Assembly (NCBI GenBank): GCA_021797735.1
Contig: JAJZZE010000018.1
Span: forward strand, 1-44,348
Origin: Thermoplasmata archaeon
GTDB taxonomy: Archaea; Thermoplasmatota; Thermoplasmata; Thermoplasmatales; Thermoplasmataceae
Reading direction: 5' to 3'
Length of the DNA stretch: 44,348 nucleotides
Part shown: one piece after another, positions 26,399 through 39,968 of the stretch
Layout of the letters: every line of letters begins with the position of its first letter
Position numbering within the stretch: the stretch's first letter is position 1
Notes under the pieces: generated by a model
Seen by the model: only the letters and a program-made list of their open reading frames with translations
What the model was told of the DNA's origin: nothing
Database searches by the model: none
Position numbers and translations under genes: made by a program

Positions 26399-26803
26399 AT
26401 GGAAAATATGAAAAATGGCTTTAAATATATTAAAATATATTCTTTTATTGATATTATATTTATTATAATTTTTAGTTTATTATATATATACACATTAAAG
26501 AAATTTCTAATATTATTTATAATTTCATTTTCATTGATACTTCTACTCTATATTTTCTTATATTATAATGCTTTAAAAGGAAAAGTACATTTCATAAAGC
26601 CGGACATTAATACAACGAAATATAAAATAGAATTTATAATTTTTGTAGGTATATCCACAATGTTATTATCTATATTATTTTATATCATTAAAAATATTTA
26701 TACCCGTTTAATATTATCGATTATGTTTATAGCAATACTGTCTATATTTGTATATAATTATAATAATAAGACAATAAAAATTTATCAAAACTTAGATAAA
26801 TAA
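26399..26803 (+). CDS. four-helix membrane protein, partner of the preceding small protein
   Basis: 134 residues with four hydrophobic helices in two hairpins (about 14-35, 38-60, 78-96 and 102-118) separated by a polar loop containing HFIKPDINTTKYK, and a charged C-terminus. No family recognised. The gene is extremely AT-rich, even by the standard of this genome (codons almost only A/T in third position). Its size and topology match immunity-type membrane proteins that accompany secreted peptides, but this is inferred from context only. Confidence 0.6.
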   Translation: MENMKNGFKYIKIYSFIDIIFIIIFSLLYIYTLKKFLILFIISFSLILLLYIFLYYNALKGKVHFIKPDINTTKYKIEFIIFVGISTMLLSILFYIIKNIYTRLILSIMFIAILSIFVYNYNNKTIKIYQNLDK

Positions 26804-35971: not shown

Positions 35972-36445
35972 ATGAGATGCTTTCTTGGTTCTCCGTTAAA
36001 TATAGATGAAAATATTTATAATTCCATAAATTATGACGGTAAAAAAACGGATAGGGAATTGCTGCATATTACATATTATTTCCTCGGGGAAATTGATAAA
36101 TTATATTCAAACTATGTATGTTCAAAAATAAATTCACTGGATATAAAAAAATCTGAGATAACCGTAAATGGCATACATGGATTTCCTAATGATAGGCGTG
36201 CACGTATTTTATATTTTAGTATAGATAGCGAAGATGTAAATAATATTTATAAAAAATTAGTAGATGAAATTAATTTAAAAAAATATAATTTTATACCCCA
36301 CGTTACAATATACCGTTTCAAAAAATTCCATGAAGTTATAAAAAGTGATATTAAGTTCGATATAACAATAGATAGGGTATGTTTATATAATAGTATATTC
36401 AAAGAAAAAAGAATATACAATGAATTATGCTGTAAATATATGTGA
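35972..36445 (+). CDS. thpR: RNA 2',3'-cyclic phosphodiesterase (2'-5' ligase family)
   Basis: A 157-residue two-histidine phosphoesterase. Both HxTx motifs are present: ELLHITYYFLGEID and IPHVTIYRFKKF. It opens with MRCFLGSPLNIDE and has GIHGFPNDRRARILYFSID, as in archaeal ThpR proteins (shorter than bacterial, about 180). It acts on RNA 2',3'-cyclic phosphate ends or on 2'-5' linkages. Its role may complement RtcB, which uses cyclic-phosphate ends, though the genes are 25 kb apart. Own TATA element before the start. Confidence 0.93.
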   Translation: MRCFLGSPLNIDENIYNSINYDGKKTDRELLHITYYFLGEIDKLYSNYVCSKINSLDIKKSEITVNGIHGFPNDRRARILYFSIDSEDVNNIYKKLVDEINLKKYNFIPHVTIYRFKKFHEVIKSDIKFDITIDRVCLYNSIFKEKRIYNELCCKYM

Positions 36446-36462
36446 ATTACCCCCACAGCGGA

Positions 36463-36483
36463 CTATTTTTGTCTCAAAAATAG
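36463..36483. repeat. perfect 8-base inverted repeat, possible element end or terminator
   Basis: CTATTTTT and AAAAATAG flank GTCTC (36471-36475). It lies 18 bases after the thpR stop and about 65 bases from the end of the transposase remnant. Its core TGTCTCAAAAATA (36470-36482) resembles the reverse complement of TATTTTTTGGGACA at 39643-39656 and TTTTGTCCCAAAA at 109-121. Confidence 0.5.
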
Positions 36484-36547
36484 GCATATGCTTATAGAAC
36501 CCTAAAACATATAATCCGCACCTTAAATTATGCGCATGTGTGGTATT

Positions 36548-36730
36548 CTACTGGATCAGCATGCCCTTTAAATAAAGTTCTAAAGCCTGATATGGGCTAA
36601 ACATTGCCAGATCATGATAATGTCTGTTATATTCCTCTATTGCATCCTCTATATACATTTTCCCGAGTTTTCTATTAATGCTTATGCTTATCATCATGTA
36701 TATTAATATTGCAAATTTGTTCCAATATAT
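36548..36730 (-). pseudogene. C-terminal remnant of a DDE transposase
   Basis: A short reverse-strand frame of about 60 codons, ending at 36548, reads ...INRKLGKMYIEDAIEEYNRH, YHDLAMFSPYQALELY and KGMLIQ. This is the end pattern of integrase-core (IS3/IS481-like) transposases, which finish with a final helix carrying an EYNxxxxH and PYxAL motif. The catalytic part is absent: the frame closes at an upstream TGA near 36731. It sits between thpR and cooS and indicates past insertion. Confidence 0.55.
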
Positions 36731-36749
36731 TCATGCTAATAATAAGTTT

Positions 36750-36760
36750 GATATATATTT
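36750..36760 (+). promoter_or_regulatory. TATA box of cooS
   Basis: GATATATATTT is centred about 22-25 bases before the ATG at 36776, giving a leaderless message. No repeated operator-like motif is visible around it. Confidence 0.5.
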
Positions 36761-36775
36761 TAAGATTAATTAAGT

Positions 36776-38734
36776 ATGCAAAAAGAAAGCGAACAAAAAA
36801 TTGATTTAAAACTGGGGAAATTCGGATCATCAATGGCCACAAAACCGTCTATTGATCTGATTCATAAAATTATGGATGATACAGGCACATCCTCCTTTGA
36901 AAGGTTGTCAAAACAGGATCCTTCATGCTGGTTCGGTGAGTGGGGTGTTTGCTGCAGAATATGTTATATGGGCCCCTGCAGGATTACCAGTGCAAGATTT
37001 AACAGGGGCGCTTCAAGGGGTGTCTGTGGGGCCACAGCCGATACCATAGTTGCAAGGAATCTGCTCCGTGAGACAGTTGGTGGAACTGCATCGCATGCAG
37101 AACATGCATTTGAAATAGCAGAGACATTGAAACTTGTAGCCACTGATAAGATAAAGGGTTATGAGATAAAGGATAAGACTAAGTTATTAAGTGTTGCAAC
37201 AAATCTGGGAATTGAAGTTGAGGGAAAGACAGATAAGCAAATAGCAAATGAAATAGCAGATGTAACAATTGCTGATTTCAGTAAAGCTGACCATGAGCCC
37301 ATGGTCTGGGTAAAAGGATACGCTCCCTCATCAAGCTATCTTCACTGGAAGAATCTAAACATTATTCCATCCAATTCGTGGTCATTTATAATGAATGCCC
37401 TTCATAGAACCAGCATGGGAAATGATGCGGAGGTAAGTAATATTCTTCTTGCAGATCTTAGAATGGGAATTCTTGATGGGTATTCAGGTCTTACCCCAAG
37501 TACAGAGTTATCCGATATTCTATTTGGAACCCCTGAAGTTGTAAATTCAACTGCAAATATTGGAGTTTTGAAGGAAGATTATGTTAATCTGGCCATACAC
37601 GGGCATAATCCACTGGTGGCTGAGAAGGTTGTTGAATGGGCAGAACGCCTTGATGATGAGGCAAAGAAACTGGGCGCGAAGGGAATTAACCTTGTTGGTG
37701 TATGCTGCAGTGGAAATGAGGTTCTAATGCGACACGGTGTACCCATGGCAGCCAACGAAATGCAGGCAGAACTTGCAATTGCAACAGGGGCACTTGATGC
37801 AATGGTTGTGGACTTCCAGTGTATATGGCCAGTTCTTGGTGAGGTTGCGTCATGCTATCATACAAAGCTTATTACAACAATTCCATATGTCAAGATCCCT
37901 GGAGCACTGCATATAGAGTATTCGCCGGAACGTGCTGATGAGGTGGCGGAACAGATTGTAAGGGAGGCCCTTAAAGCTTACGTAAAACGTGACCCATCCC
38001 GTGTACTGTTATCTAAACAGGTTGAACCGGTTGTTGGTGGATTTTCAGTGGAGGCTATAACCAAACTGCTTGCCAAGGTAAATAGTGAGGACCCACTGAA
38101 ACCATTAATTGATAAAATCGTAAAAGGTGACATATACGGTGTAGTTGGCATTGTGGGTTGCCCAAATCCAAAACTACGCAGGGAACTTTACACCGAGAGG
38201 CTAATTAGAGAACTTTTCAAGAATAATATACTGGTTCTGGTTACCGGGTGTATTGCACATATATCAGCTCAGGAAGGTTTCATGAACCCTGCAAGGATAG
38301 ATGAATTTGAGATGGGTGATGGATTAAGGGAAACACTAAAAGAACTTGGTGGCGTTGCCGGTATGAGTTCCCTTCCCCCAACCCTTCATATGGGTTCCTG
38401 TGTGGATAATTCAAGAATAGGGGTTCTGGTAAAGAATATTTCAGAAAAACTGAATGTTGATGTTTCTGCCCTGCCTGTAGTTGCATCGGCTCCAGAGCTT
38501 ATTGCAGAAAAGGCCGTGGCTATTGGAACATGGGCGCTATCCCTAGGACTTCCACTTCATACTGCTCCAGAACTACATATAGAGGGTGGAAAACAGGTTA
38601 AGGAGATTCTCTCAGAAAGCCTGAAGGGTCTTACCGGAGCTGAGACTTTTAGTGAGATGGACCCGGAAAAGGCGGCTAAAGAAATGGTAGAGATAATAAA
38701 GGAAAAAAGAAAAGCCCTCGGGCTTCCTATATAA
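36776..38734 (+). CDS. cooS: Ni-Fe carbon monoxide dehydrogenase catalytic subunit
   Basis: A 652-residue CooS that oxidises CO to CO2 (or the reverse) at a Ni-4Fe-5S C-cluster. All metal ligands can be matched to Carboxydothermus CODH-II: D-cluster Cys51 and Cys59; B-cluster Cys60, Cys63, Cys68, Cys84; C-cluster His in HGHNP (275/277), Cys311 (GVCCSGNE), Cys349, Cys462 (GIVGCPNP), Cys492 (VTGC) and Cys542 (HMGSCVDNSR); catalytic Lys579 in EKAVAIG. The His-rich proton path after residue 105 is thinner (SHAEHAFE). Higher G+C and different codon use from the flanks suggest transfer. cooC follows at once; no cooF, hydrogenase or acetyl-CoA synthase gene is present. Confidence 0.96.
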   Translation: MQKESEQKIDLKLGKFGSSMATKPSIDLIHKIMDDTGTSSFERLSKQDPSCWFGEWGVCCRICYMGPCRITSARFNRGASRGVCGATADTIVARNLLRETVGGTASHAEHAFEIAETLKLVATDKIKGYEIKDKTKLLSVATNLGIEVEGKTDKQIANEIADVTIADFSKADHEPMVWVKGYAPSSSYLHWKNLNIIPSNSWSFIMNALHRTSMGNDAEVSNILLADLRMGILDGYSGLTPSTELSDILFGTPEVVNSTANIGVLKEDYVNLAIHGHNPLVAEKVVEWAERLDDEAKKLGAKGINLVGVCCSGNEVLMRHGVPMAANEMQAELAIATGALDAMVVDFQCIWPVLGEVASCYHTKLITTIPYVKIPGALHIEYSPERADEVAEQIVREALKAYVKRDPSRVLLSKQVEPVVGGFSVEAITKLLAKVNSEDPLKPLIDKIVKGDIYGVVGIVGCPNPKLRRELYTERLIRELFKNNILVLVTGCIAHISAQEGFMNPARIDEFEMGDGLRETLKELGGVAGMSSLPPTLHMGSCVDNSRIGVLVKNISEKLNVDVSALPVVASAPELIAEKAVAIGTWALSLGLPLHTAPELHIEGGKQVKEILSESLKGLTGAETFSEMDPEKAAKEMVEIIKEKRKALGLPI

Positions 38735-38740
38735 GGTGAT
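38735..38740 (+). promoter_or_regulatory. ribosome binding site of cooC
   Basis: GGTGAT starts at the base after the cooS TAA and ends four bases before the ATG at 38745. It sets the cooC start at 38745 and not at the GTG at 38736 inside the site. Confidence 0.7.
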
Positions 38741-38744
38741 AAAA

Positions 38745-39629
38745 ATGAGTTCAGAATTTATACTTTCTGGCGAGGAAGAAAGGGATAGCAGGGTCAAGGA
38801 TCTGGTAAGGGGAGCTGAATCAGCCGGTATTAACAATCCAGAAAACAGGATTGTAATTACTGGAAAGGGTGGAACTGGTAAGACTACCATAACTGCCATT
38901 CTCTCATATCTTATTGCAGAGAAACACAAAGTCCTGGATGTTGATGCTGATCCACAGATGAACCTGCCGTATGCTCTTGGACTTGACAGAAAAGTTGCAG
39001 CGAAAATCGTACCACTAAATGTTCAGGCAGATTATATAGAGGAGAAAACGGGTGCCAGGCCAGGATCTGGGTGGGGTGAATTTCTCTCACTTAATCCCGA
39101 TGTAAGCGACGTTGTAGAAAGATTTGGAATAGGTATCAACGATAAAATAAGCATACTTGTGATGGGAACATTACATAAATCGGGAATAGGATGTCTGTGC
39201 CCTGAGAACGACCTCTTAGAATCTGTGGTGAGACACATATCTATAAGAAATGATGAACGGATTCTTATGGATACTGAAGCTGGAGTGGAACATTTTGGAA
39301 GAGCCATAGCAAGAGGTTTTGGTCATGCAATAGTGGTCAGTGAGGTGTCTTTTAACTCTATACAGGTAGCATCAAGTGCGGTAACACTGGCATGGGATCT
39401 TGGAATAAAAAACATTCACCTTGTTTTTAACAGGGTTGCAGGCAATAAGGATGATATTGATAGCCTTATAGACGAAATCGATCCCAGCATACCATTTACA
39501 GTTGACCAGATTCCCTTTGATGAAAATCTAAGAACCGTGGATCCATCAGTAAAACCATTATTAACCAGCAACAGTAAAATGGTTCCTGCCGTTAGGAAAC
39601 TACTAAACAGGATTTATGAAAGTTCCTGA
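38745..39629 (+). CDS. cooC: CooC-type nickel-insertion ATPase for CO dehydrogenase
   Basis: A 294-residue MinD/ParA-family ATPase that helps insert Ni into the CODH C-cluster. The deviant Walker A is TGKGGTGKTT (39-47), DVDADPQMNLPYALG follows, and SGIGCLCPEND carries the CxC pair (Cys149, Cys151) by which CooC dimers bind metal. LMDTEAGVEHFGRAIARG is the switch 2 region. About 35 extra residues precede the P-loop compared with short CooC proteins. It overlaps nothing but follows cooS by 10 bases and shares its base composition, so the pair behaves as one transferred unit. Confidence 0.93.
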   Translation: MSSEFILSGEEERDSRVKDLVRGAESAGINNPENRIVITGKGGTGKTTITAILSYLIAEKHKVLDVDADPQMNLPYALGLDRKVAAKIVPLNVQADYIEEKTGARPGSGWGEFLSLNPDVSDVVERFGIGINDKISILVMGTLHKSGIGCLCPENDLLESVVRHISIRNDERILMDTEAGVEHFGRAIARGFGHAIVVSEVSFNSIQVASSAVTLAWDLGIKNIHLVFNRVAGNKDDIDSLIDEIDPSIPFTVDQIPFDENLRTVDPSVKPLLTSNSKMVPAVRKLLNRIYESS

Positions 39630-39962
39630 TATAAAATAACCGTATTTTTTGGGACATCTATAAGTACCGAAAAATTATTCTATTTTTCTTATATTTGCAG
39701 TGGTGATCTACTGGAATTTTTAGTGTTATGCGTGTATCAGGATAGATGTAATGCCACTGATTTATAAATATTTCCGATCGCTTTCGTTTATTATCCTGCT
39801 AAACAGGATTTCCCGCATGCCAAATTAAAACATAAAAACATATAGTAACTAAATTACTATATAATGTAACACAGAATATGTTGCAACGAATAGGTTATAT
39901 ACATTTTAAACATAACATTATATGATAATGGAAGTTATCATGAAATAATTAATAAAAGTAAC
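39630..39962. other. non-coding stretch after cooC with repeat debris
   Basis: About 330 bases without a credible gene. TATTTTTTGGGACA (39643-39656) resembles the inverted sequence at 36470. CTAAACAGGATTT at 39799-39811 repeats bases 39603-39615 within the end of cooC. ATCCTG (39793-39798) and CAGGAT (39804-39809) form a small hairpin around it. The region is richer in G+C at its start than at its end. It looks like an insertion scar; the last 60 bases are AT-rich and likely hold the dnaG promoter (GTTATATACA near 39894). Confidence 0.4.
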
Positions 39963-39968
39963 GGTGAT
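39963..39968 (+). promoter_or_regulatory. ribosome binding site of dnaG
   Basis: GGTGAT lies four bases before the ATG at 39973 and overlaps an upstream in-frame GTG, favouring 39973 as start. Confidence 0.6.

Follow-up and report, generated by a model that had tools for sequence, protein, structure and literature searches.

A cooS-cooC gene pair with a complete set of cluster ligands

The stretch of DNA analyzed here, referred to as the window, is 44,348 nucleotides long and encodes an anaerobic Ni-Fe CO dehydrogenase (CODH), CooS, and its accessory ATPase, CooC (Table 1). Both genes lie on the same strand, and the GTG start codon of cooC is located 1 nt past the stop codon of cooS. An earlier reading based on the letters of the DNA alone, here called the sequence-only reading, had placed both genes at exactly these positions. 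In a profile search, CooS scored 649.7 bits against TIGR01702 (cut-off 478), with positions 9-621 of the 621 profile positions covered, and it matched the Pfam family Prismane (PF03063) at 2.8e-155. The best PDB match of CooS was 6elq, the structure of CODH-IV from Carboxydothermus hydrogenoformans (ChCODH-IV), with 668 bits. CooC has a deviant Walker A motif (GKGGTGKTT) and Cys153-x-Cys155, which together with the neighboring cooS are the features of a CooC nickel-insertion ATPase. Its best solved relative is CooC1 (3kje; phmmer, 1e-33), with which the CxC motif is aligned.

The metal ligands were assigned in an alignment with solved CODHs, including ChCODH-IV, ChCODH-II (1su6) and the Thermococcus AM4 enzyme (6t7j), and about 30 other CooS proteins, the numbering being counted on the ChCODH-II chain 1su6. 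All ligands of the B-, C- and D-clusters and the catalytic Lys, K579, are present, as the sequence-only reading had claimed. The D-cluster has the type II spacing C-x7-C-C, and Glu113 and Glu116 stand at the positions equivalent to H99 and H102 of ChCODH-II. The D-, B- and C-cluster ligands are invariant across the six CooS proteins found in the Thermoplasmataceae. In the scheme of Inoue 2019 (PMC6344411), a type II D-cluster combined with a complete active site marks clades E and F, which are catalytically active, and with its full set of C-, B- and D-cluster ligands and the acid-base His and Lys, CooS carries this signature.

Table 1. Positions of genes, ligand residues and other features in the window.
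Feature	Position	Strand	Description
Open frame	26399..26803		135 codons; 16% G+C vs 32% in its neighborhood
thpR	35972..36445		ThpR-like RNA 2',3'-cyclic phosphodiesterase gene
Degraded frame	36446..36775	-	between thpR and cooS; weakly HEPN-like, below the Pfam cut-off
cooS	36776..38734	+	catalytic subunit of anaerobic Ni-Fe CODH, 652 aa; coordinates include the stop codon
D-cluster Cys51, Cys59; B-cluster Cys60, Cys63, Cys68, Cys84	36926..37027	+	alignment
His107, His110	37094..37105	+	acid-base residue (= ChCODH-II H93) and equivalent of H96; alignment
C-cluster His277, Cys311, Cys349, Cys462, Cys492, Cys542	37604..38401	+	alignment
Leu575 to Lys579	38498..38512	+	ChCODH-II A559 position to catalytic Lys (= K563); alignment
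cooC	38736..39629	+	accessory protein for nickel insertion, a P-loop ATPase resembling MinD/ParA; 297 aa
dnaG upstream region kept in congeners	39850..39963	+	left edge is the junction of the rearrangement toward cooC

Partners and candidate electron acceptors in the genome

The genome that was searched for partners comprises 1.97 Mb and is 99.2% complete, and controls matched in each of the partner searches (CdhC/AcsB, [NiFe], CooF). CdhC/AcsB (PF03598) was found in 0 of 77 genomes of the family, this one included. The genome itself also yielded no [NiFe]-hydrogenase large subunit (PF00374) and, at E 1e-3, no CooF-type dicluster ferredoxin (Fer4_11, PF13247). Since CooS is the single match to its family in the genome, there is neither a second CODH nor a hybrid cluster protein. 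Thus, the statement of the sequence-only reading that the window has no cooF, energy-converting hydrogenase (ECH) or acetyl-CoA synthase (ACS) genes holds and extends to the whole genome, in which ordinary ferredoxins are present. As regards its classical partners, cooSC is an orphan genome-wide. This sets it apart from the CODH/ACS and CODH/ECH systems, which use the same catalytic subunit family, whereas this genome has neither ACS nor a [NiFe]-hydrogenase. The genome also encodes two Mo-hydroxylase large subunits, one with and one without a form II-like YRGAGR motif.

Fer4_7 domains were detected at 16 places in the genome, including a ferredoxin of 149 aa (L105) that we take to resemble the archaeal 7Fe ferredoxins. 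A complex I cluster on contig C4 has B-, C-, D-, H-, I-, K-, L-, M- and N-like genes, the subunits other than D and I being assigned by size, order and eye. No NuoE, NuoF or NuoG was found in this 12-kb stretch, which begins at a contig end, and a ferredoxin could therefore be the electron donor of complex I.

A second membrane complex is encoded by six Ehr/Hyf-like genes on contig C22 (L063:6285-12683) and consists of Hyf-like membrane proteins with 49-kDa-like and 20-kDa-like subunits. The 49-kDa-like subunit gave no match above cut-off to a [NiFe]-site family. The presence of such a complex would allow a coupling in which CooS drives the pumping of protons or sodium through it without producing H2. 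We give this coupling little chance, since the complex is unlinked to cooSC and its 49-kDa-like protein has a counterpart in the searched congeners both with and without cooS, which argues that the complex is not specific to CODH.

Distribution, selection and history of the gene pair

The cooS gene is carried by 6 of the 117 genomes of the order, all belonging to one family and representing six species in three genera. In all six carriers cooC is located directly 3' of cooS, with a gap of 1 nt in five of them, and it is the only gene that is kept beside cooS across the six genomes. Most congeners are without cooS, and the non-carriers include two single-contig congener genomes (G060, G061). 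A NicO-type nickel importer, the only importer family sought, is absent from all six carriers, this genome included; co-occurrence of such an importer with cooS is thereby ruled out for NicO, and we count this absence against the function that we propose below.

Comparison with the sister species (G065) gave dN/dS values of about 0.09 (cooS) and 0.08 (cooC); in more distant pairs dS is saturated and dN is still low. Both proteins are under strong purifying selection. The dS values of the pair (0.155 and 0.163) fall within the range of its neighbors (0.06-0.33), and the pair therefore predates the split from the sister species. A recent transfer of cooSC is thus not supported.

As the sequence-only reading had noted, the pair is richer in G+C and differs in codon use. 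The G+C content of cooS is the highest among the 41 ORFs of the window (0.434 vs 0.320 +/- 0.042 for the 39 others), and the excess resides mainly in codon positions 1 and 2 (GC1 0.557 vs 0.387; GC3 just 0.348 vs 0.282 +/- 0.043). Synonymous codon use is atypical as well (CTT 0.40 vs 0.14, TTA 0.11 vs 0.44, ATT 0.53 vs 0.27). High expression as the cause of this bias is not supported, because the genes for ferredoxin, nuoD and pdo have a different codon pattern, without the preference for CTT and ATT. The G+C excess was rejected as sole proof of transfer, since it mainly concerns codon positions 1 and 2 and since GC3 tracks the host in the carrier G083.

These properties bear on the possibility that cooSC is a recently transferred, drifting pair of little or no function, for which the atypical G+C content and codon use, the patchy distribution and a rearranged junction next to cooC could be cited. 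We consider this extremely improbable: the selection test already contradicts it (dN/dS about 0.09), none of the ligands has been lost in any of the six species, the neighboring genes show a range of synonymous divergence that includes that of the pair, and the pair of G083 has a host-like G+C content (0.483 vs 0.479).

The six CooS proteins of the Thermoplasmataceae form one clade with a support of 100/100 and a long stem (0.8-1.0), within which the members of genus g1 and those of genus g2 each group together. CooS thus groups with five homologues from its own family in genus-consistent positions, which goes part of the way against the transfer claimed by the sequence-only reading. Of that claim, a recent arrival has fallen on the synonymous divergence; an old acquisition in the Thermoplasmataceae, presumably followed by repeated loss or by movement inside the family, is still suggested by the long stem, the small number of carriers (6 of 117 genomes) and the differing loci.

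The locus of cooSC differs between genera. It is fully shared between the window and the sister species and partly shared within g2 (G042, G043), with NUDIX and PEP-carboxylase-like neighbors. The congeners keep the dnaG-lonB pair, with a gene for a 338-aa protein upstream of dnaG. The interval between cooC and dnaG measures 334 bp, of which the last 114 match the congener G063 at 87%, the match being shorter in other congeners, and the first 220 match only the sister species. The idea that the pair was simply inserted between thpR and dnaG is not supported, because the entire upstream side differs in the congeners and thpR has a close orthologue in the sister species only.

Several observations concern the surroundings of the pair. 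Among ten congeners, a close orthologue of thpR was found only in the sister species; the gene evolves fast (dS 0.33), and G063 has a decayed copy, interrupted by many stops, on contig C17. The degraded frame between thpR and cooS has an open version of 146 aa in the sister species (L005:3532-3972). A transposase remnant upstream of cooS is not supported, this degraded ORF being merely weakly HEPN-like. In G043 (contig C5, L115:3096-14356), cooSC lies between genes for an IS605 OrfB/TnpB-type and a DDE transposase, which are about 8.5 kb apart. The frame of low G+C content elsewhere in the window (Table 1) probably arose by chance or else is a gene of low complexity.

Probable relationship to CODH-IV and the question of oxygen

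The nearest relatives of CooS found outside the family clade are the CooS of G429, from another Thermoplasmata family (49-50% identity), and ChCODH-IV (48% over 626 positions, vs 46% for ChCODH-II); the remaining CooS proteins in 400 genomes of the class are at most 46% identical. CooS grouped with ChCODH-IV in three tree builds, with supports of 96/96, 91/92 and, without the long-branched G429 sequence (L026), 93/88, although the grouping was starred in the first build only and the reference sampling is thin. Few bacterial CooS references are included because the peptides used in the contig scan were clade-specific; the scan returned only the five Thermoplasmataceae relatives, and a plasmid collection yielded distant clostridial CooS only. 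On this evidence, CooS is probably CODH-IV-like.

ChCODH-IV, an enzyme that scavenges CO, is the nearest solved structure, with the same cluster ligands and the same type II D-cluster. It retains 20% of its activity after 1 h of O2 and has a much lower KM (PMC13056359). The description of the present enzyme as oxygen-sensitive in the sequence-only reading has thus become uncertain, its nearest solved relative being O2-resistant. The genetic contexts differ: the ChCODH-IV operon contains FeS and NAD/FAD oxidoreductases (PMC13056359) and the enzyme has been linked to rubrerythrin (PMC6085454), whereas cooC alone accompanies cooS here. The CODH of Nitratidesulfovibrio (Desulfovibrio) vulgaris likewise has a maturation gene as its sole fixed neighbor, with a regulator in addition, but that enzyme belongs to clade E, has a type III D-cluster and is 42% identical, whereas the present one has a type II D-cluster and probably falls on the clade F side.

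An oxidative-stress role with rubrerythrin has been proposed for CODH-IV of C. hydrogenoformans (PMC6085454). With this enzyme as the nearest solved relative, cooSC might serve in stress or redox defense, with peroxide, O2 or another oxidant being reduced by CO-derived electrons or directly by the cluster. We regard such a role as unlikely, because the conserved neighborhood includes no rubrerythrin, peroxidase or oxidoreductase, and because a protein disulfide oxidoreductase gene located 3 kb upstream is not beside cooS in other genera.

Residue A559 of ChCODH-II is an engineered O2-tunnel residue (PMC12338426), and its position is occupied by Tyr in ChCODH-IV and by Leu575 in CooS. A bulky residue at this position was rejected as proof of O2 tolerance, since the D. 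vulgaris and Thermococcus CODHs carry Trp there and the position is therefore not diagnostic. Leu575 may at most serve as a lead on O2 tolerance.

Proposed function and the earlier report from Ferroplasma

The host almost certainly belongs to the genus Ferroplasma. In a 2013 survey (Yelton 2013, PMC3750248), an anaerobic Ni-CODH with all ligands is described for Ferroplasma type II (Fer2 scaffold 31 gene 47), with an adjacent maturation gene and no Wood-Ljungdahl pathway; it is stated to be absent from Fer1. The Fer2 enzyme and cooSC agree in genus, ligands, maturation neighbor and the absence of Wood-Ljungdahl genes, and the organism and gene of the window are possibly those of Fer2. Accordingly, cooSC is an intact solitary Ni-CODH unit of a known kind that was already reported in this genus in 2013. 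The Fer2 account, in the passages considered, gives no relationship to CODH-IV, no wider distribution and no selection test. The present analysis adds the genome-wide orphan status, the distribution over six species, the selection, the probable relationship to CODH-IV and the evidence against a recent arrival.

Fer1 is described in the survey as facultatively anaerobic (PMC3750248). The label of aerobic thermoacidophile in the sequence-only reading was hence too strong, as Ferroplasma includes facultative anaerobes, and an O2-sensitive enzyme would not be a paradox in this genus. Together with the residual activity of ChCODH-IV, this makes O2 less of a puzzle than had been claimed.

The function that we favor, with modest confidence, is that of a self-sufficient, anciently acquired unit, in which a homodimeric clade-F-like Ni-CODH scavenges CO via a general ferredoxin. 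Judging by its family, CooC would use ATP in supplying the C-cluster with nickel. CooS would then convert CO + H2O to CO2 + 2 H+ + 2 e-, and the conservation of the ligands shows the wiring through the B- and D-clusters by which the electrons would exit. Because ACS, hydrogenase and a dedicated CooF were not found, the acceptor would most likely be a general ferredoxin, such as the archaeal ferredoxin of 149 aa, from which electrons may pass to the complex I encoded elsewhere and on to O2 or Fe(III). The role of the pair would be opportunistic scavenging of CO for energy or detoxification, and not carbon fixation. CO is a plausible substrate because it is contained in acid-mine air; the survey gives up to 50 ppm for the air of the Richmond Mine (PMC3750248).

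For the Fer2 enzyme, Yelton 2013 favored a new pathway of carbon fixation in which CO2 is reduced (PMC3750248). Ni-CODHs are reversible, and CooS could in principle produce CO that is assimilated by a non-ACS enzyme. We prefer CO oxidation because nothing was found in the genome that is known to use CO. Carbon fixation of this kind seems highly unlikely to us given that CdhC/AcsB is found in 0 of 77 family genomes, that the six loci have no conserved CO-using neighbor and that most congeners manage without cooS.

Ni-CODHs are usually associated with anaerobes, in which they work together with ACS or a hydrogenase. The occurrence of a selected cooSC in six acidophile species of a family in which no ACS was found makes the electron acceptor of solitary CODHs testable, and likewise the in vivo function of CODH-IV-type enzymes under oxygen. 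A further-reaching idea, which we put forward tentatively and hold to be rather doubtful, is that the Ni-CODH lineage of the Thermoplasmataceae might be O2-resistant and might feed electrons from CO via general ferredoxin into aerobic or Fe(III) respiration. If true, it would be a nickel-dependent counterpart of the aerobic Mo-CODH in an iron-oxidizing acidophile.

Other CooS arrangements in related archaea

In G429 (contig C55, L112:20-12507), CooS is encoded directly downstream of HdrA-like, NuoE/F-like and FeS oxidoreductase genes, with no adjacent cooC. With gene functions judged by eye, this CooS looks as if it were wired to an electron-bifurcating Hdr complex. Furthermore, several Thermoplasmatota families have CooS fused with a bacterial-type AcsB in a single ORF of about 1360-1416 aa, an arrangement for which our literature search returned no description. 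Such fusions are located at L148:391-4467 (G380) and at L021, L023, L024, L025, L027, L032, L033, L036 and L123-L126. One complete ORF encodes 1358 aa, and the AcsB part was checked by profile in three loci.
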